Position numbers and translations under genes: made by a program | Shown here: one piece after another, positions 25,693 through 33,998 of the stretch | Layout: every line of letters begins with the position of its first letter | Position numbering within the stretch: the stretch's first letter is position 1 | Notes under the pieces: generated by a model | Told to the model about the DNA's origin: nothing | What the model saw: the letters and a program-made list of their open reading frames with translations, nothing else | The model's database searches: none | Assembly (NCBI GenBank): GCA_003576905.1 | Contig: QEVG01000004.1 | Location: 1-64,000, forward strand | DNA: 64,000 nucleotides | Reading direction: 5' to 3' | Source: Planctomycetota bacterium | Lineage (GTDB): Bacteria; Planctomycetota; Phycisphaerae; UBA1845; UTPLA1

Positions 25693-26520
25693 GTGTCGAT
25701 ACTTCGCTGCCAGGATGTGCACAAGTCCTACTCGCTGGGCCGGACGGAGTTGCCGGTGCTGCGGGGGATTGATCTGTCTTTCGATGCCGGACGGTTTGTC
25801 GCGATCATCGGCAACAGCGGCAGCGGGAAGAGCACGCTGCTGCATGTTTTATCGGGGCTGGATGTTCCGCAGCGCGGGCAGGTATGGTTCGAGGGTCAGC
25901 CGTTATTCGAGCCGGAGGGTTTCCGGCGGATTCCGATCGGCCGGGACAGCGATGCGAATGGAAACCGGGCACGGCAGTGGCAGCGCCCGGGGCCGTTGAA
26001 GGCGAGCGGTGGGTCGGGCGGGGGGACGTCCGCGGCGGTTGCCGCGCCGCCGGTCTCGTTCAACATGCATCGCGATGAGCTGCTCAATCGCTCGTTCGGA
26101 TTTGTGTTTCAGTTTTATCATCTTCTGCCGGAGTTCGACGTACTGGAGAATGTGCTTCTGCCGGCGATGGTGGGCCGGTCGATGGGCAACTGGCTGACGG
26201 ATCGCGTGCGAACGGAGGAGCGGGCACGCAGCTTGCTGGACTCGGTGGGGCTGGGCGACCGGCTTGCGCACCGGCCGAGCGAATTGTCTGGCGGCGAGCG
26301 GCAGCGGGTCGCCATTGCCCGCGCGCTGATGAATGAGCCAGCGGTTCTTTTCGCGGACGAGCCGACGGGGAACCTGGATACGCGCACGGGCCGGGAGATT
26401 TTCGATCTGCTCAAGCGGCTGAACGCGGCGGGTCAGACGATCATCATGGTGACGCACGATCGCGAGCTGGCGGGCCGGACGGATCAGGTTGTGCAGATCG
26501 TGGACGGACGTGTACAATAG
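25693..26520 (+). CDS. LolD-type ABC transporter ATPase with an internal insert
   Basis: A 275-residue ATPase, probably the partner of the FtsX-type permease at 22467. Walker A is GNSGSGKST (about 40-48), the signature is LSGGERQ, Walker B is VLFADEP followed by the D-loop 'TGNLDTRTG' and the switch His in 'MVTHDREL'. Between Walker A and the Q-loop is an extra stretch of about 40 residues rich in Gly, Ala, Ser and Arg (roughly 82-122) that standard LolD proteins lack. I favour the GTG at 25693 (GGAG 11 bases upstream); an ATG at 25651 would add 14 residues but has no ribosome binding site. Confidence 0.9.
   Translation: MSILRCQDVHKSYSLGRTELPVLRGIDLSFDAGRFVAIIGNSGSGKSTLLHVLSGLDVPQRGQVWFEGQPLFEPEGFRRIPIGRDSDANGNRARQWQRPGPLKASGGSGGGTSAAVAAPPVSFNMHRDELLNRSFGFVFQFYHLLPEFDVLENVLLPAMVGRSMGNWLTDRVRTEERARSLLDSVGLGDRLAHRPSELSGGERQRVAIARALMNEPAVLFADEPTGNLDTRTGREIFDLLKRLNAAGQTIIMVTHDRELAGRTDQVVQIVDGRVQ
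26489..26518 (+). promoter_or_regulatory. Possible promoter for the aminotransferase gene
   Basis: TTGTGC (26489-26494), 18 bases, TACAAT (26513-26518). It lies in the last codons of the ATPase gene and faces the aminotransferase about 190 bases downstream. Confidence 0.35.
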
Positions 26521-26713
26521 GCGGGCCTGCGGTGACGAGCCTATCCTAATAATGTCAATTGCGCGTGGGGCGAGCGGCCGATCGCCGATCGCCCGGATGT
26601 TTCAAACGCCTCGGGAGGGCATTACCATGACCACGGTCGTCGGCCCAGCGGAATCGGCGCGTCGCGCTACGAAGGAGTACGGGAGTAAGGAACCGGCCAT
26701 CAAGGAGCGCCCC

Positions 26714-27613
26714 ATGGCGGATGAGTATTTGCCAAACCCGAATCTCAAGATCTGGATTGACGGAAAGCTGGTGCCGCCGGCGCAGGCGACGGTGAGCGTC
26801 TTTTCGCACGGCCTCCTTTACGGCGACGGCGTATTCGAGGGCATCCGCGTCTATAACGGCCGCATCTTTGAGGGGCCGGCCCACATGAAGCGGTTCGCCC
26901 TGAGCCTGAAGGCGATCCGGCTCGAAATCCCGTACACGATGGATCAACTCGTCGACGCGATGAAGCAGACGATCAAGGCCAACAATACCATCGACGGGTA
27001 CATCCGGCTGGTGGCGGCGCGCGGACCGGGCACATTGGGCATTCATCCGTTCCGCACGGTCGCTCCCAACGTGTTCATCATCTGCGACCGGATCCAGATG
27101 TTCGACCCGGAGATGTACGAGAAGGGGATGAAGGTCATCACGGCGTCGACGATCCGGAATCATCCGAATGCGCTGTCGCCGCAGATCAAGAGCCTTAACT
27201 ACCTCAACAACATCATGGCGAAGATCGAGGCGATCGACGCCGGATGTCTCGAAGCGGTGATGCTCAACCACGAGGGCTACGTCGGCGAGTGCACCGGCGA
27301 CAACCTGTTCATCGTCCAGGGCGGAAAGCTGCGGACCCCGGCGACGCACTGCGGCCTGCTGGGCGGCGTGACGCGGCGGCTGGTCCTCAAGATGGCCCAG
27401 AAGCGCGGCATCGCCACTGACGAGTCCACCCTGACGCGGGCGGACCTGTACTATTCCGACGAGATGTTCATCACCGGCACCGGCGCCGAGGTGTGCCCGG
27501 TCACCGAGATCGACAAGCGGCCCGTGGGCGACGGGAAGCCGGGCGCGATCACGAAGCAGCTCATCGCCGACTTCCGCGCTCATATCAAGAGCGGGGAAGA
27601 CATGCTGGCGTAA
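26714..27613 (+). CDS. ilvE: Class IV (branched-chain-type) aminotransferase
   Basis: A PLP enzyme of 299 residues transferring amino groups between branched-chain or related amino acids and 2-oxoglutarate. It has 'GLLYGDGVFEGIRVYNGRIF' (34-53), the PLP lysine Lys159 in SPQIKSLNYLNN, GECTGDNLF, and 'ITGTGAEVCPVTEIDKRP' near the end. Two starts are plausible: ATG 26714 (AGGAG at 26703-26707) and ATG 26627 (GGGAGGG upstream), which would add 29 residues; I prefer the shorter. It is the first gene of a likely amino-acid catabolic block with the IOR genes downstream, although a strong terminator separates them. The substrate range is inferred. Confidence 0.9.
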   Translation: MADEYLPNPNLKIWIDGKLVPPAQATVSVFSHGLLYGDGVFEGIRVYNGRIFEGPAHMKRFALSLKAIRLEIPYTMDQLVDAMKQTIKANNTIDGYIRLVAARGPGTLGIHPFRTVAPNVFIICDRIQMFDPEMYEKGMKVITASTIRNHPNALSPQIKSLNYLNNIMAKIEAIDAGCLEAVMLNHEGYVGECTGDNLFIVQGGKLRTPATHCGLLGGVTRRLVLKMAQKRGIATDESTLTRADLYYSDEMFITGTGAEVCPVTEIDKRPVGDGKPGAITKQLIADFRAHIKSGEDMLA

Positions 27614-27652
27614 TCAGCCGCTCGGGCAAGACTGAGCGAGACGGACCATCCA

Positions 27653-27688
27653 CCGGGCGCGCGACTCGATCGCGCGTCCGGTTTTTTT
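27653..27688 (+). terminator. Intrinsic terminator after the aminotransferase gene
   Basis: Stem CCGGGCGCGCG (27653-27663) and CGCGCGTCCGG (27671-27681), one G-T wobble, 7-base loop, followed at once by seven T residues. A textbook rho-independent terminator. Confidence 0.9.
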
Positions 27689-28032: not shown

Positions 28033-29634
28033 ATGTCGATGGAAATGCTCCTCGGCGACGAGGCGGTGGGGCTGGCGGCGCTGCACAGCGGGATCGGGGG
28101 CGCCTTTTCGTACCCCGGCACGCCGGCGACGGAGATCTTTGAAACGATTCAGGCGCGCAAGGGGAAGGACGTATCGACGATCTGGTCGGCGAACGAGAAG
28201 GTGGCCTACGAAGAGGCGCTGGGGATGTCGTTCGCGGGCAAGCGGGCGATCGTGTCGATGAAGCACGTCGGGCTGAACGTGGCGATGGACCCGTTCATGA
28301 GTTCGGCGCTGACCGGGGCGCGGGGCGGGCTGGTCCTGGCGGTGGCGGATGATCCGGGCATGCACTCGTCGCAGAACGAGCAGGACTCGCGCTGCCTGGG
28401 CGACTTCGCGCAGATCCCGGTATTCGAGCCGTCGAACCAGCAGGAATGCTACGACATGACGCGCGAGGCGTTCGCGATGTCGGAGCGCTGGGCGTTGCCG
28501 ATCATGATCCGGCTGGTGACGCGGCTGGCGCACAGCCGTGCGGCGGTACGGATGCGGCCTGCGGAGCACGCGAAGGGCGTGGATCGGGCGATCGACTGGC
28601 ACGAGTGGACGCTGCTTCCGCCGAACGCGCGGCAGCGGTACCGGCGGCTGATCGACATGCAGTCGACGCTGCACGAGTACTCGGAGCATTCGGCGTTCAA
28701 CGCGATTGAGCTGCGCGGGCCGAAGGGGATCATCGCCTGCGGGCTGGCGCACAATTACGTGCGCGAGGCGATCGAGGACGACGCGCGGTACTCGCTGCTC
28801 AAGATCACGACGTATCCGCCGCCGATCCGGCAGATTCGCGAGCTGATATCGCACTGCGACGAGGTGCTGGTGGTCGAGGAGGGCTATCCCTTCCTGGAGC
28901 GGCAGCTCGTCGGCCTGCTCGGGGTGCATGGCAAGCTGATCCGCGGCAAGCGCAGCGGGGCCCTGCCGCCGGACGGGGAAATGACGACGGACAAGGTGCG
29001 GACGGCGCTGGGGCTTCCGCTGGCGTCGGGCCAGCCGGCGGCGACGGGACTGCCGGCGCGGCCGCCGCGGCTGTGCGACGGGTGTCCACATTGTGACACT
29101 TTCAGGGCGATGATGTCGGCGCTGGAGGGGGTTCAGACGCCCTTTCTGATGAGCGACATCGGCTGTTACACGCTCGGGGCCCTGCCGCCGTACAACGCCG
29201 TGCAGACGTGCGTCGACATGGGAGCGTCGATCTCGATGGCCCACGGCGCGGTGCGGGCCGGCGCGCGGCCGGTGGTCTGCACGATCGGCGATTCGACCTT
29301 CACGCACTCGGGCATGACGGCGCTGATCGGGGCCATCCGCGAGAACGCCGACATGACGGTCATGATCCTGGACAACGGGACGGTGGCGATGACCGGCGGG
29401 CAGACGGCCCTGGCGACGGGCGAGAGCATGATCCAGCTTCTGCTCGGGTTGGGCGTTCCGAGGGAACATCTGATCGAGATCGATCCCATGCCGAAGCACC
29501 ACGAAAAGAACGTGGAGCTGGTCAGGAAGGAGATCGATCATCGCGGCTTGTCGGTGATCGTGGCGTGCCGCCCGTGCATTCACACGGTGCGCAAGGTGAA
29601 GAAGGAAGCGGCGGCGGCGGCGACGGCGGAGTAG
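28033..29634 (+). CDS. iorA: Indolepyruvate:ferredoxin oxidoreductase alpha subunit lacking its ferredoxin domain
   Basis: Oxidatively decarboxylates aryl- or other 2-oxo acids with CoA to acyl-CoA and reduced ferredoxin, using thiamine diphosphate. It has 533 residues. The N-terminal pyrimidine-binding part opens 'MSMEMLLGDEAVGLAALHSG' with 'FSYPGTPATEIFE'; the C-terminal part binds TDP with CDGCPHC (about 347-353), GDSTF (about 418) and 'MILDNGTVAMTGGQ'. Usual IorA proteins run past 600 residues and end with two [4Fe-4S] clusters. Here the chain stops after 'VACRPCIHTVRKVKKEA' and no CxxCxxCxxxCP motif exists. GGAGAG precedes the ATG. The beta subunit follows after 71 bases as part of a fusion. 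Confidence 0.9.
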   Translation: MSMEMLLGDEAVGLAALHSGIGGAFSYPGTPATEIFETIQARKGKDVSTIWSANEKVAYEEALGMSFAGKRAIVSMKHVGLNVAMDPFMSSALTGARGGLVLAVADDPGMHSSQNEQDSRCLGDFAQIPVFEPSNQQECYDMTREAFAMSERWALPIMIRLVTRLAHSRAAVRMRPAEHAKGVDRAIDWHEWTLLPPNARQRYRRLIDMQSTLHEYSEHSAFNAIELRGPKGIIACGLAHNYVREAIEDDARYSLLKITTYPPPIRQIRELISHCDEVLVVEEGYPFLERQLVGLLGVHGKLIRGKRSGALPPDGEMTTDKVRTALGLPLASGQPAATGLPARPPRLCDGCPHCDTFRAMMSALEGVQTPFLMSDIGCYTLGALPPYNAVQTCVDMGASISMAHGAVRAGARPVVCTIGDSTFTHSGMTALIGAIRENADMTVMILDNGTVAMTGGQTALATGESMIQLLLGLGVPREHLIEIDPMPKHHEKNVELVRKEIDHRGLSVIVACRPCIHTVRKVKKEAAAAATAE

Positions 29635-29705: not shown

Positions 29706-32700
29706 ATGGAGTTTAACCTGATTCTCGCGGGCGTCGGCGGGCAGGGCATCCTGACCACGGCGCAGGCGATGTGCCTGGCGGCGATGCGGCGCGGGCTGTC
29801 GGTGAAGCAGGCCGAGGTGCACGGCATGTCGCAGCGCGGCGGTGCGGTGCAGTCGCACCTGCGCATTTCGGACGGCACGCTGTACAGCGACCTGATCCCG
29901 CGCGGGCGTGCGAACATGATTCTCGCCGTCGAACCGCTCGAGGCCCTGCGCTACGTGGAGTATCTCGGGCCCGACGGCGTGATCGTGTCCAACACCGCGC
30001 CGCTGATCAACATTCCGAACTATGGGGCGGTCGACGAGGTGATCCAGAGGATTCACCGCTACGCGAATCACGTCCTCGTCGACGCCGGGGGCCTGGCGGC
30101 GGCGGCCGGTTCGACGCGGGCGGTGAACATGGTGATGCTCGGCGCGGCGTCGATCTTCATCGAGCTGCCGCCCGATGAGTTTTTCGCGGCGATCGCCGAG
30201 ATGTTCGCGTCCAAGGGGCCGCAGATAATCAAGGCGAACCAGCGGGCCTTCGAGCTCGGGCGCGGCGCGGCGGCGGCTTATCGCGAGATGCTGGCGTCGG
30301 GCGCCGACCCGACGGCGGTGCGGCACTGGCTGGCAGAGCACCCGGACGGGGGGCGCGAGCGTGCCGCGCTTCCGGCACGCATCCTCGATCCGGCGGAGGA
30401 CCTGAGCGCCGAGCAGGCATCGCGGATCGACGAGATCCTCCGCGAGGCGGGGGAGGACAACCGGCGGCAACTGTACGAGCACGAGGCCTACCGGATCATC
30501 GAGACGGCCGGGGGCATCACGCCGCCGAAGCACTTCTTCCTGCGCAGCGGACAGGCCGTCACGCAGGCGATGCTCGACGAGCTGCCGGGCCACCGGGTGG
30601 TGATCAAGATCGTCTCGCCGACGGTGGTTCACAAGAGCGACGCGCAGGCGGTGATCTTCGTCGCGAAGGACATGGGGATCGTGCCGCACGAGATCGATCA
30701 GCTCATCGTGCGTCAGCAGAGCCTCGGGGCGCGGGTGGACGGCGTGCTTCTGGTGGAGTGCGTCGAGCACGACGGCGCGCATTTCGGCAGCGAGCTGTTC
30801 GTGGGTATCCGCGCCTCGCGCGCGTTCGGGCCGGTGATCGCCGCCGGACTGGGCGGCGTGGACACGGAGTACCTGGCGGCGAAGCTCCGGCCCGGCATCG
30901 CAGTGGCCAAGGCGCTGGCGACGCAGACGACGGCGCGCGAATTCCTGGAATTGTTCAAGACGACCGCGGCGTACGAAATTCTCGCCGGGCGCGTGCGCGG
31001 GCACCCGCGCATGGTGTCCGACGGGCAGCTCCTTCGGTGTTTCGCGGCGTTTCTGGGGATCGCGCGGCGGTTCTGCGGAATCGGCGAGGGGGGCGCGCGG
31101 CGGCTGGTCGAGCTGGAGGTGAACCCGTTCGCGTTCCGGCGGATGACGATGGTGCCGCTTGACGGGCGGGGGCGTCTGGGCTCGATCGCGGCGCCGGGCG
31201 TGCCGCGTCCGGTGGAGAAGGTGGAGGCGCTCGTGGAGCCGCGGTCGATCGCCATCGTGGGCGCATCGGGCAAGCGCGAGAACTTCGGGCGGATCATCCT
31301 CAACAACATCCTGGCGTGCGGCTTTCCGGCGGAGCACCTGTATGTCCTGCACGCGGAGGAGACGCGGATCGACGGCGTGCGCTGCGTGCGCGACGTGGCG
31401 AGCGTGCCGGAGCCGGTCGATCTGCTCATCGTCGCGGCGGCGGTGGGCGACGTGCCGGCGTTCATCGGCGATTGCATCGACAGCGGGCGGGTGCGCTCGG
31501 TGATCCTGATTCCGGGCGGGTTTGGCGAGACGGCGGGCAGCGGTGCGCTTCAGGAGCGCGTGCAGCAGCTCATCGGCGCGTCGCGGCAGCGGGCGGACAG
31601 GGGACCGGTCTTTCTCGGCGGGAACTGCCTCGGGGTGCGTTCGAGGCCGGGGCATTACGACACGTTCTTCATTCACGACAAGAAGCTGGACCCGCGGCGC
31701 CACGCGCGGCCGCGACGGCTGGCCTTTGTGAGCCAGAGCGGGGCGTTCATCGTCTCGCGGCTGTCGAACCTGCCGACTTTGGACCCGACGCTGGCGATTT
31801 CGCTGGGCAACCAGACGGACCTGGCGGTGTCGGACCTGATGACACACGTGGGGCGGCGCGACGACATCGACGTGATCGGCGTGTACATGGAGGGGTTCAA
31901 GGATGGCGACGGGATCGCCTTTGTCGAGGCGGTGCGGCGCGCGGCCGAGGCGGGCAAGCTCGTGGTCTTCTACAAGGCGGGCCGGACCGAGGCGGGCCGC
32001 AGCGCGACGGCCGGGCACACTGCCTCTATCGCGGGGGACTACGACGTCTGCGACGCGGCGGTCGGCGCGGCCGGGGCGATCGTGGTGGACACGTTTAAGG
32101 AGTTCGAACAGGTGCTGGAGATGGCCGTTCGCCTGCACGGCAAGCGCGTCGGCGGCGTGCGGATCGGGGCGATCAGCAACGCGGGGTTTGAGTCGGTGGG
32201 CATGGCCGACGCGACGATCGGCATGCGCTATCGCGTGCGGCTGCCGGAGCTTTCCGCCGAGACGACGCGGCGGCTCACCGAGGCGCTCGACCGGCACAAG
32301 CTGGCGGCGCTGGTGAACGCGCGGAACCCGCTGGACCTGACGCCGATGGCGACGGACGCGGCGTATGAGGAGTGTGCCCGGGCGCTTCTGGAGGACGCCG
32401 AGATCGACGCGCTGATCGTGAGCATGGTGCCGCTCACGCCGGCACTGCTGACCGGGGCGGACGAGATCGGCGGGGAGGGGTCGATCGCCCGGCGGCTGGC
32501 GCGGCTGGCGGCCGAGACGGCCAAGCCGATCATCACGGTGATCGACTCGGGGCCGCTTTTTGATCCGCTGGCGGACGCAATTCGGGACGGGGGCGTTCCG
32601 GTGTTGCGGACGTGCGACCAGGCGATTCGTTCGCTGGGTCGGTACCTGTGTCACCGCGCGCCCAAGGCGACGGCGGGGCTTGTGGAATCACCCAAGCCGC

Positions 32701-32756
32701 GACCGGCCGAGTCAGCACGGCGCGAGAAGGCGGAGGGGCTGGAGGTGGTGCGGTAG
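29706..32756 (+). CDS. Fusion: IOR beta subunit + ADP-forming acyl-CoA synthetase (both halves)
   Basis: A 1016-residue polypeptide. Residues 1-195 are the IOR beta (gamma-type) domain ('LILAGVGGQGILTTAQAM', 'EVHGMSQRGGAVQSHLRIS'). A linker (196-250) leads to an ATP-grasp domain (about 255-485) like the acyl-CoA synthetase beta subunit, with His309 in 'KIVSPTVVHKSDAQAV'. Residues 505-985 match the alpha subunit: CoA-binding Rossmann fold ('PRSIAIVGASGKRENFG'), ligase domains, and the phosphorylated His771 in 'SATAGHTASIAGD'. The IOR product, acyl-CoA, is the synthetase substrate, so the chain would make the acid and ATP. AGAGG lies about eight bases before the ATG. Domain identities are clear; the coupled reaction is inferred. 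Confidence 0.9.
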   Translation: MEFNLILAGVGGQGILTTAQAMCLAAMRRGLSVKQAEVHGMSQRGGAVQSHLRISDGTLYSDLIPRGRANMILAVEPLEALRYVEYLGPDGVIVSNTAPLINIPNYGAVDEVIQRIHRYANHVLVDAGGLAAAAGSTRAVNMVMLGAASIFIELPPDEFFAAIAEMFASKGPQIIKANQRAFELGRGAAAAYREMLASGADPTAVRHWLAEHPDGGRERAALPARILDPAEDLSAEQASRIDEILREAGEDNRRQLYEHEAYRIIETAGGITPPKHFFLRSGQAVTQAMLDELPGHRVVIKIVSPTVVHKSDAQAVIFVAKDMGIVPHEIDQLIVRQQSLGARVDGVLLVECVEHDGAHFGSELFVGIRASRAFGPVIAAGLGGVDTEYLAAKLRPGIAVAKALATQTTAREFLELFKTTAAYEILAGRVRGHPRMVSDGQLLRCFAAFLGIARRFCGIGEGGARRLVELEVNPFAFRRMTMVPLDGRGRLGSIAAPGVPRPVEKVEALVEPRSIAIVGASGKRENFGRIILNNILACGFPAEHLYVLHAEETRIDGVRCVRDVASVPEPVDLLIVAAAVGDVPAFIGDCIDSGRVRSVILIPGGFGETAGSGALQERVQQLIGASRQRADRGPVFLGGNCLGVRSRPGHYDTFFIHDKKLDPRRHARPRRLAFVSQSGAFIVSRLSNLPTLDPTLAISLGNQTDLAVSDLMTHVGRRDDIDVIGVYMEGFKDGDGIAFVEAVRRAAEAGKLVVFYKAGRTEAGRSATAGHTASIAGDYDVCDAAVGAAGAIVVDTFKEFEQVLEMAVRLHGKRVGGVRIGAISNAGFESVGMADATIGMRYRVRLPELSAETTRRLTEALDRHKLAALVNARNPLDLTPMATDAAYEECARALLEDAEIDALIVSMVPLTPALLTGADEIGGEGSIARRLARLAAETAKPIITVIDSGPLFDPLADAIRDGGVPVLRTCDQAIRSLGRYLCHRAPKATAGLVESPKPRPAESARREKAEGLEVVR

Positions 32757-33107: not shown

Positions 33108-33998
33108 ATGAAACCGAAAAACTTCATGGCCCTGACCGAAGATGAAGCCCGAGCCTACCTGGAGTCTATCCGCTGGCCTGATGGCCCCGTATGCCCCCAT
33201 TGTGATAGCCGGGAGGTCACTCGGCTACAGGGCAAGGCCACGCGCCCTGGCGTCATCAAGTGCAAGTCTTGCCGGAAGCAGTTCACGGTCACCGTGGGCA
33301 GCATCTTCGAGCGAAGCCATATTTCGTGCTCGAATTGGGTCCGGGCCTTCTACATGGTCTGTTGCTCCAAGAAGGGCGTTTCGGCCCTCCAGCTTCAGCG
33401 CATGCTCGGCCTGGGTTCCTACAAAACCGCGTGGTTCATGGTTCACCGAATCCGATGGGCCATGCGGCAAGAGCCATTGAAGGCCATACTCAAGGGTGTT
33501 GTGGAAGCTGATGAAACGTGGGTTGGACCGCGCAAGCGACGGCCAGACGGGCACAATAACTGGCAAGAGAATAAAACGCCGGTAGTCGCCCTGATTCAGC
33601 GCGATGGGCCGATGCGCGTCCGCGTCCTCAACCGCGTTACCAAAGAGAACTTGAAGATGGCATTAGACGAAGCGGTTCACGATGACGCAACGCTCATGAC
33701 GGATCAGCTACAGGCTTACCGCAAAATCACCAAGCGATTCAAGGCCCACAAGACCGTCGATCATTCGCGCGGCGAATACGCTCGCGGTGACGTGCATTGC
33801 AACACGGCCGAGTCGTTCTTTTCCTTGTTGAAGCGGGGCATTCACGGCACGTTCCACCATGTCGGTAGGCAGCACCTTCACCGCTACGCGGACGAGTTCG
33901 CCTTCCGATGGAATCACCGAAAGACGACGGACGCAGAGCGGACGGAAGCGGCCCTGCGAACGGCCCCAGGAAAGCGGCTCAAGTACAAACCGGTGTAA
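33108..33998 (+). CDS. IS1595-family (ISXO2-like) DDE transposase
   Basis: A 296-residue transposase. The N-terminal zinc ribbon uses Cys29, Cys32, Cys52 and Cys55 (CPHC and CKSC). Then a helix-turn-helix region ('GVSALQLQRMLGLGSYKTAW') and the DDE core: VEADETWVG, 'DDATLMTDQLQAY', and 'HCNTAESFFSLLKRGIHG', followed by 'RYADEFAFRWNHRK', all typical of the family. It is full length with no frameshift, so possibly active. Its 3' end overlaps the convergent gene at 33979 by 20 bases. It is expressed from a promoter in the left inverted repeat. Confidence 0.93.
   Translation: MKPKNFMALTEDEARAYLESIRWPDGPVCPHCDSREVTRLQGKATRPGVIKCKSCRKQFTVTVGSIFERSHISCSNWVRAFYMVCCSKKGVSALQLQRMLGLGSYKTAWFMVHRIRWAMRQEPLKAILKGVVEADETWVGPRKRRPDGHNNWQENKTPVVALIQRDGPMRVRVLNRVTKENLKMALDEAVHDDATLMTDQLQAYRKITKRFKAHKTVDHSRGEYARGDVHCNTAESFFSLLKRGIHGTFHHVGRQHLHRYADEFAFRWNHRKTTDAERTEAALRTAPGKRLKYKPV

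Follow-up and report, generated by a model that had tools for sequence, protein, structure and literature searches.

The 64,000-nucleotide window analysed here (positions 1 to 64,000 of contig QEVG01000004.1, assembly GCA_003576905.1, from a Planctomycetota bacterium) carries a gene, iorB-acd, in which a 2-oxoacid oxidoreductase subunit resembling IorB, the beta subunit of indolepyruvate oxidoreductase (IOR), and an acyl-CoA synthetase of the NDP-forming type (ACD) are joined in one polypeptide. An iorA-like gene lies upstream, with 71 bp between the two. Judged from their sequences, iorA and the fused gene likely encode a bifunctional complex that oxidises a 2-oxoacid and then converts the acyl-CoA product to the free acid with formation of ATP. 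The features on which this reading is built, all on the + strand, are the following (TPP, thiamine pyrophosphate; OFOR, 2-oxoacid:ferredoxin oxidoreductase).

29706..32756, +, fused gene iorB-acd, 1016 residues (open frame, Pfam and NCBIfam matches; fusion conserved in relatives)
28033..29634, +, iorA-like gene, 533 residues, with POR_N and TPP-binding domains (Pfam) and four invariant cysteines (348, 351, 378 and 515)
29736..30263, +, POR (IorB or gamma-type) domain, residues 11-186 (Pfam POR, NF005324, predicted OFOR gamma fold)
30291..30449, +, linker, residues 196-248 (structure model; helices predicted at 202-211 and starting at 235, with 217-226 modelled at low confidence)
30450..31169, +, ATP-grasp domain, residues 249-488 (Pfam ATP-grasp_5)
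30630..30632, +, codon for His309, by homology the first residue to accept the phosphoryl group (lines up with the HK motif in 9y43 and 8wzu; role as given for H535 of Nmar_0206 in the available text of PMC11494057)
31242..31640, +, CoA-binding domain, residues 513-645 (Pfam CoA_binding_2)
31713..32123, +, succinyl-CoA-ligase-like flavodoxin domain with the swinging loop, residues 670-806 (Pfam Succ_CoA_lig)
32016..32018, +, codon of His771, swinging-loop phosphohistidine by homology (aligned with the SHTG motif of 9y43)
32124..32660, +, CoA-ligase domain (ACD domain 5), residues 807-985 (TIGR02717 match over 507-979; fold match to 8wzu_A)

The frame runs from the ATG at 29706 to the stop codon ending at 32756 as a single stretch of 1016 residues with no internal stops, as the first-pass annotation of this DNA had described it, and there is none between residues 195 and 250, the interval that the annotation had singled out for checking. 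Four Pfam families (POR, ATP-grasp_5, CoA_binding_2 and Succ_CoA_lig) exceed their curated cut-offs in the fused protein, and the NCBIfam model of IOR beta, NF005324, scores 250.7 bits on residues 1-191 against a cut-off of 222, in line with the earlier assignment of the N-terminus to an IOR beta domain; the second IOR beta model, TIGR03334, stays below its cut-off. The ACD claimed for the same polypeptide is indeed complete, with every domain and both phosphoryl-transfer histidines present, and these histidines were correctly numbered as 309 (in VVHKSD) and 771 (in GHTASIAG). When the window gene is compared with that of L005 (loci and genomes are given by our own L and G handles), both halves are under purifying selection, with nonsynonymous divergence (dN) of ~0.2 and synonymous divergence (dS) of 1.0-1.8; the linker is under looser constraint (dN 0.46, dS 1.5) and the last 31 residues are barely constrained (dN 0.96, dS 1.4). 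G016, from the window's genus, has the same fused frame, with 71% identity over residues 1-988.

The predicted phosphoryl-transfer histidines are retained in nearly every ACD row. His771 is kept in all 72 aligned ACD rows and His309 in 71 of them, the remaining row having a gap at a contig start, and all 41 fused rows have His309, His771 and Glu729 together. In the ACD mechanism, as set out in the available text of PMC11494057, the ATP-grasp histidine takes the phosphate and hands it on to the swinging-loop histidine. A model of the whole protein built from 25 fused sequences has a mean predicted local distance difference test (pLDDT) of 81.8 and a predicted template-modelling score of 0.77; residues 760-774, the loop with His771, are among the stretches with pLDDT < 50, consistent with a mobile loop. 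The ACD part matches 9y43, a 3-hydroxypropionyl-CoA synthetase, over 677 residues with identical domain order (Z 33.1, root-mean-square deviation (rmsd) 4.4, 24% identity; Foldseek E 1.2e-38), and model residues 502-989 fit residues 1-456 of chain 8wzu_A with 442 aligned (Z 36.8, rmsd 2.9). A structure search with the full-length model says little about the POR part, so residues 1-215 were modelled on their own (pLDDT 92.1); this model matches the gamma subunits or domains of oxidoreductases that act on 2-oxoglutarate, pyruvate and other 2-oxoacids. By its domains and both histidines, the fused protein is thus assigned to the NDP-forming acyl-CoA synthetase (ACD) superfamily.

The iorA product supplies the other half of an oxidoreductase. 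POR, POR_N and TPP_enzyme_C all score above the Pfam cut-offs in the gene pair, and Cys 348, 351, 378 and 515 of IorA are invariant in 82/82 aligned rows (26/26, 13/13 and 43/43 in three groups); we take these cysteines to be the ligands of a proximal [4Fe-4S] cluster. Likewise, G419, D420, D447 and N448, presumably the TPP motif, are retained in all rows except at most two. The pair is accordingly placed in the OFOR superfamily by its domains, gamma fold, cysteines and TPP motif. The Pfam scan found no Fer4 match, and hence no C-terminal ferredoxin domain, in the window IorA, and a Fer4-like motif occurs in only one of the 82 aligned relatives, the distant L162. Since IorA is without that domain and the four cysteines are invariant, electrons probably go from the proximal cluster directly to a soluble ferredoxin.

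The same architecture is found well beyond this contig. A total of 67 fused loci reduce to 50 distinct sequences, one of which is a fragment of the window itself, giving 49 distinct fused genes; six further ones, from Armatimonadota, were read after these. The search for the same fusion in other genomes that the first-pass annotation had suggested was therefore productive, and the functional link that it drew between IOR and ACD holds, the two being fused in these 49 genes and separate but adjoining in 41 loci. We regard this coupling as well supported. In 46 of these 49 cases iorA is encoded on the strand of the fused gene, the other three being at a contig start, and it stands upstream of the fused gene in the gene listings of the fused loci. 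Interdomain spacing varies by 5 residues over the 67 loci (duplicates included), and the copies in L051, L065 and L071 come from records titled as chromosomes.

Planctomycetota, Myxococcota, Acidobacteriota and Armatimonadota all have the fusion. In a class sample of 397 genomes searched with a match threshold of E 1e-60, 46 matched, and in 31 of these one frame spans both halves; 30 of the 31 frames are stop-free, the sole TGA, in G396, being the terminal stop. In G007 and G329 the match passes the junction and ends part-way, with the remainder on another contig, while the other 13 matches are split, run into a contig end, or are ACDs with no IorB attached. For the phylum samples a fused count means one match spanning both halves, with matches only partly read individually, and further fusion variants may exist there. 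On this basis 20 of 392 genomes in the window's phylum sample matched, 3 of them fused (the window included). The phylum of L067 (Myxococcota by tree label, Deltaproteobacteria by record title) gave 35/329 matches with 7 fused, one of these starting at a contig edge and lacking 26 N-terminal residues; that of L065 (Acidobacteriota by record title) gave 89/347 with 3 fused; and that of L078 (Fimbriimonadaceae, Armatimonadota) gave 11/291 with 9 fused, one cut at residue 908 and seven read as single open reading frames (ORFs). The remaining phylum-sample matches are IorB or ACD genes without the fusion, or fragments. Open-frame lengths had also suggested a second, independent fusion in Acidobacteriota and Myxococcota (G766, G1226, G1130 and others), but in the 20 + 20 stretches that were read these turned out to be pairs of distinct genes, interrupted by a stop or lying in different frames.

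Phylogenetic analysis places every fused row in one ACD clade in all three trees that we built. This clade has 49 rows in tree 1, 41 of them fused (SH-aLRT 100), 54 rows in tree 2 with 47 fused (FastTree, support 91) and 59 rows in tree 3 with 53 fused (support 91). Rows from neighbouring, unfused genes fall nearly all outside it. The split pair of L073, which may reflect a fission or a frameshift, and the lone ACD of L135 are inside the clade in trees 1 and 2 and outside in tree 3, and L148 is inside in trees 1 and 3 and outside in tree 2; rows cut by contig ends (L074, L086, and L137 with L138) are uninformative. The IorB tree likewise gathers the fused rows (42 of the 48 rows in their clade, support 94). 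Counting changes of the fused label gives 8 on ACD tree 1 or 7 on tree 2, numbers that parsimony alone does not split into gains and losses. The simplest account would be that neighbouring genes fused once and that the fused gene then spread, being lost or exchanged here and there; fusion may also have happened more than once within the clade, and a single origin is not proven.

The presumed starting material for such a fusion is represented by the 41 loci in which iorA, iorB and acd lie close together as individual genes. By their ORF ends, 13 of these loci are in frame and 28 out of frame, as expected by chance, and L156 has the gene order acd, iorA, iorB. In some Aminicenantes the unfused operon is accompanied by a divergent gene for an Rrf2-type regulator (L081:5580-6092, - strand), with ResB and cytochrome c assembly genes further up (L081:2314-4814, - strand); L077, L083 and L084 show the same clusters.

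Taken together, these data lead us to propose the following scheme. IorA, with TPP and one proximal [4Fe-4S] cluster, and the IorB half would convert 2-oxoacid, CoA and oxidised ferredoxin to acyl-CoA, CO2 and reduced ferredoxin, and the tethered ACD half would then convert acyl-CoA, ADP and Pi to acid, CoA and ATP, with His771 of the swinging loop and His309 of the ATP-grasp domain relaying the phosphoryl group. The tether would hold the producer and the consumer of acyl-CoA together, with CoA recycled on the spot, in an assembly that may be (IorA)2(IorB-ACD)2. We infer the activity itself, the substrate class (aryl or other amino-acid-derived 2-oxoacids), the net direction towards acid and ATP, and any channelling. 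The first-pass reading of the fusion, with its direct delivery of acyl-CoA and its yield of ATP, is borne out in part. A bolder form of the proposal is doubtful: here the TPP site would hand the acyl group to the ACD site with no acyl-CoA set free, a single particle would make acid, reduced ferredoxin and ATP from an amino-acid-derived 2-oxoacid, and this particle, having arisen once by fusion of adjacent genes, would now be present in four or more bacterial phyla, including hosts with respiratory oxidases.

Several observations weigh against the proposal of a bifunctional IOR-ACD complex. IorA scores 502.5 bits on TIGR03336 against a cut-off of 650.9, aligned up to model position 542 of 595; the other IOR beta model, TIGR03334, gives the fused protein 145.1 bits (cut-off 205.8); and the ACD part is below the NCBIfam equivalog cut-offs, with 226.8 versus 567.15 on TIGR02717, 214.2 versus 1200 on NF045494 and also 212.1 versus 1300 on NF045492. 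Because IorA and the ACD part both miss their equivalog cut-offs, annotation sets the substrate of neither, and because a single IorB model supports the IOR label while IorA is below its own cut-off, we describe the enzyme as an IOR-like OFOR joined to an ACD, rather than a proven IOR. In G009 (the window's family; locus L163), G089 (L143) and G348 (L139) a lone ACD lies within the fused clade in all three trees, and these drafts, 92-99% complete, gave no IorA match better than E 9e-17, 1e-15 and 1e-14, respectively, on TIGR03336 (~1e-145 where the protein is present). The oxidoreductase half seems to have been lost on its own in these three, which are not alone, as other draft genomes too keep an ACD without a visible IorA. 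Since several genomes do so, the ACD half can probably stand alone and serve acyl-CoA from other sources. G015, the other genome of the window's genus that was searched, has neither part, and in the IorB tree the unfused L140 and L165 sit among fused rows while the ACDs of their genomes are outside the fused clade. The host has three COX1-family matches, so that ATP from this route may be minor there. Finally, a methionine gamma-lyase-like pyridoxal phosphate (PLP) gene stands directly downstream of the fused gene, on the same strand, in 3 of the 25 fused loci listed.

L059:5319-6662, L061:10360-11691 and L066:11061-12374, same strand as the fused gene, methionine gamma-lyase-like PLP genes (best NCBIfam match)

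These three genes make 2-oxobutyrate a candidate substrate, and they bring in the first alternative, that the complex acts on an aliphatic 2-oxoacid such as 2-oxobutyrate, which methionine could supply via a gamma-lyase, and yields propionate or a branched acid with ATP. That the ACD part meets no substrate-specific cut-off fits such a role. However, the three PLP genes score 473.5, 336.1 and 328.7 against a methionine gamma-lyase cut-off of 549.7, and IorB is above one of the IOR beta cut-offs. We consider such a substrate rather unlikely. L074 has a Cys/Met-type PLP gene on the opposite strand. Among the neighbours of the fused genes, none besides iorA that would name a substrate recurs widely, and of ten chosen for a Pfam scan seven had a match, all to different families.

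A second alternative has the complex working in the opposite direction, in biosynthesis or salvage, with ATP activating an acid to acyl-CoA, reduced ferredoxin driving its carboxylation to the 2-oxoacid, and the 2-oxoacid then being transaminated. According to the available text of PMC13285125 (Jiang 2026), the IOR of a methanogen has been proposed to run backwards, and in Bacteroides IOR adjoins an AMP-forming arylacetate-CoA ligase, a pairing that the paper suggests is biosynthetic. We examined 41 loci with a standalone relative of IorB, mostly from Bacteroidota, clustering the neighbours by sequence and identifying one or two representatives per cluster by Pfam. In 15 of the 41 a neighbour belongs to a shared cluster whose one scanned representative is an AMP-forming ligase; class I aminotransferase clusters occur in 15 and 7 loci, an ACT-domain protein cluster in 14 and an acetyl-CoA hydrolase/transferase in 6, and a 4HBT thioesterase was also found. 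By these neighbour clusters, one type of oxidoreductase is paired with a range of enzymes that produce or consume its acyl-CoA, and the presence of such enzymes beside the nearest standalone IorB genes also counts in favour of the proposed coupling. In L092, L109, L112 and these clusters, the IorB subfamily lies beside a thioesterase, an AMP-forming ligase or a CoA-transferase-type enzyme, according to lineage.

For the fused genes, however, the partner is of the ADP-forming, reversible type, no other gene family is widely recurrent beside them, and the host encodes a prephenate dehydratase, so phenylalanine need not come this way. We consider reverse operation unlikely. By its gene content the host probably makes phenylalanine by the common route and respires, which favours catabolism over biosynthesis as the role of the fused complex, although this is not proof. 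Four more POR-domain genes are present in the host genome (4.7 Mb in 65 contigs, completeness 97%), including a pyruvate:ferredoxin oxidoreductase (TIGR02176, 1677 bits) and a 2-oxoacid:acceptor alpha subunit, as are a second ACD that carries its ATP-grasp domain at the opposite end and a succinate-CoA ligase alpha subunit. Another of its genes (L133, G000:C11:89144) joins a PorC-type gamma domain (TIGR02175, above cut-off) to a GltD-like NAD(P)-binding part (PRK12771, below cut-off) in one frame, a further oxidoreductase fusion in this genome.

The ACD half might instead be a sensor or protein-modifying module resembling PatZ-type acyltransferases, for which a GNAT acetyltransferase domain is defining. 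The PatZ structure 9it0 is among the structural matches (Z 33.3), but that match is limited to model residues 501-993, no acetyltransferase domain is among the four families listed for the fused protein (Pfam, E 0.001), and both phosphoryl-transfer histidines are kept, making such a function very improbable. An assembly or sequencing artefact, conceivable in a draft of 65 contigs, is refuted for practical purposes by the independent copies, with the same junction at near-constant spacing in 49 distinct genes, three of them in chromosome records.

Ferredoxin-dependent oxidation of 2-oxoacids followed by an ADP-forming synthetase is a classical ATP route of peptide-fermenting archaea, with the two steps on separate enzymes. 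Compared with the IorAB of archaea and Bacteroides, the system described here has an IorB above the NF005324 cut-off, the same order of POR_N and then TPP domain in IorA, and four invariant cysteines, but its IorB is fused to an ACD, its IorA is without the C-terminal ferredoxin domain, and both TIGR03336 and TIGR03334 are missed. In the Thermococcales the route from 2-oxoacid through acyl-CoA to acid and ATP is established, and the pathway logic is the same; the OFORs and synthetases are, however, described as separate enzymes in the available sections of PMC9986279. In Peptostreptococcales, IOR-type genes occur near an ADP-forming ligase (PF13607 included) or near a phosphate acyltransferase and kinase, that is, near an acyl-CoA-to-ATP enzyme, but as neighbouring genes, and no such fusion is seen in the accessible part of PMC13285125. 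The Nitrosopumilus 3-hydroxypropionate-CoA ligase (ADP-forming; 9y43) shares with the fused protein an ATP-grasp domain placed first, as is also described in the available text of PMC11237513, followed by the CoA-binding and ligase parts; it differs in its low identity of 24% and in having no oxidoreductase domain, and the fused protein is far below the NF045492 cut-off.

Full-text literature searches, which did not reach many subscription papers or any domain-architecture database, found no description of an IorB-ACD fusion among the papers listed, in keeping with the first-pass annotation, to which none was known, and the available part of a paper on archaeal fusions (PMC11237513) gives none; automatic database annotation of the fusion may well exist. 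The architecture is thus a real and conserved one built from known enzymes, of which the covalent joining and the wide conservation appear new. That a fusion found in one clade has been kept across several phyla of mostly uncultured bacteria suggests that the two steps work as a unit. It offers a compact system for testing the tethering or channelling of acyl-CoA, and a handle for assigning amino-acid fermentation in genomes where such a gene would otherwise receive only one of its two partial names.

Upstream of iorA, a class IV (branched-chain type) aminotransferase gene occupies 26489-27613 and is followed by a hairpin.

27652..27682, +, terminator-like hairpin of 13 pairs followed by a T-run, in the gap separating the aminotransferase gene from iorA (consensus scan)

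The scan found one such hairpin against an average of 3.3 in shuffled sequence and is suggestive at most. Among the fetched loci, a similar aminotransferase lies near a fused gene in L054 alone (29% identity). Because the hairpin intervenes, even though its number is not above chance, and the gene does not recur beside fused genes, the aminotransferase is unlikely to be an operon member and is probably a separate unit. On the other side, an ORF for an IS1595-family transposase with a zinc-ribbon domain (33108-33998, + strand) starts 351 bp past the end of the fused gene.

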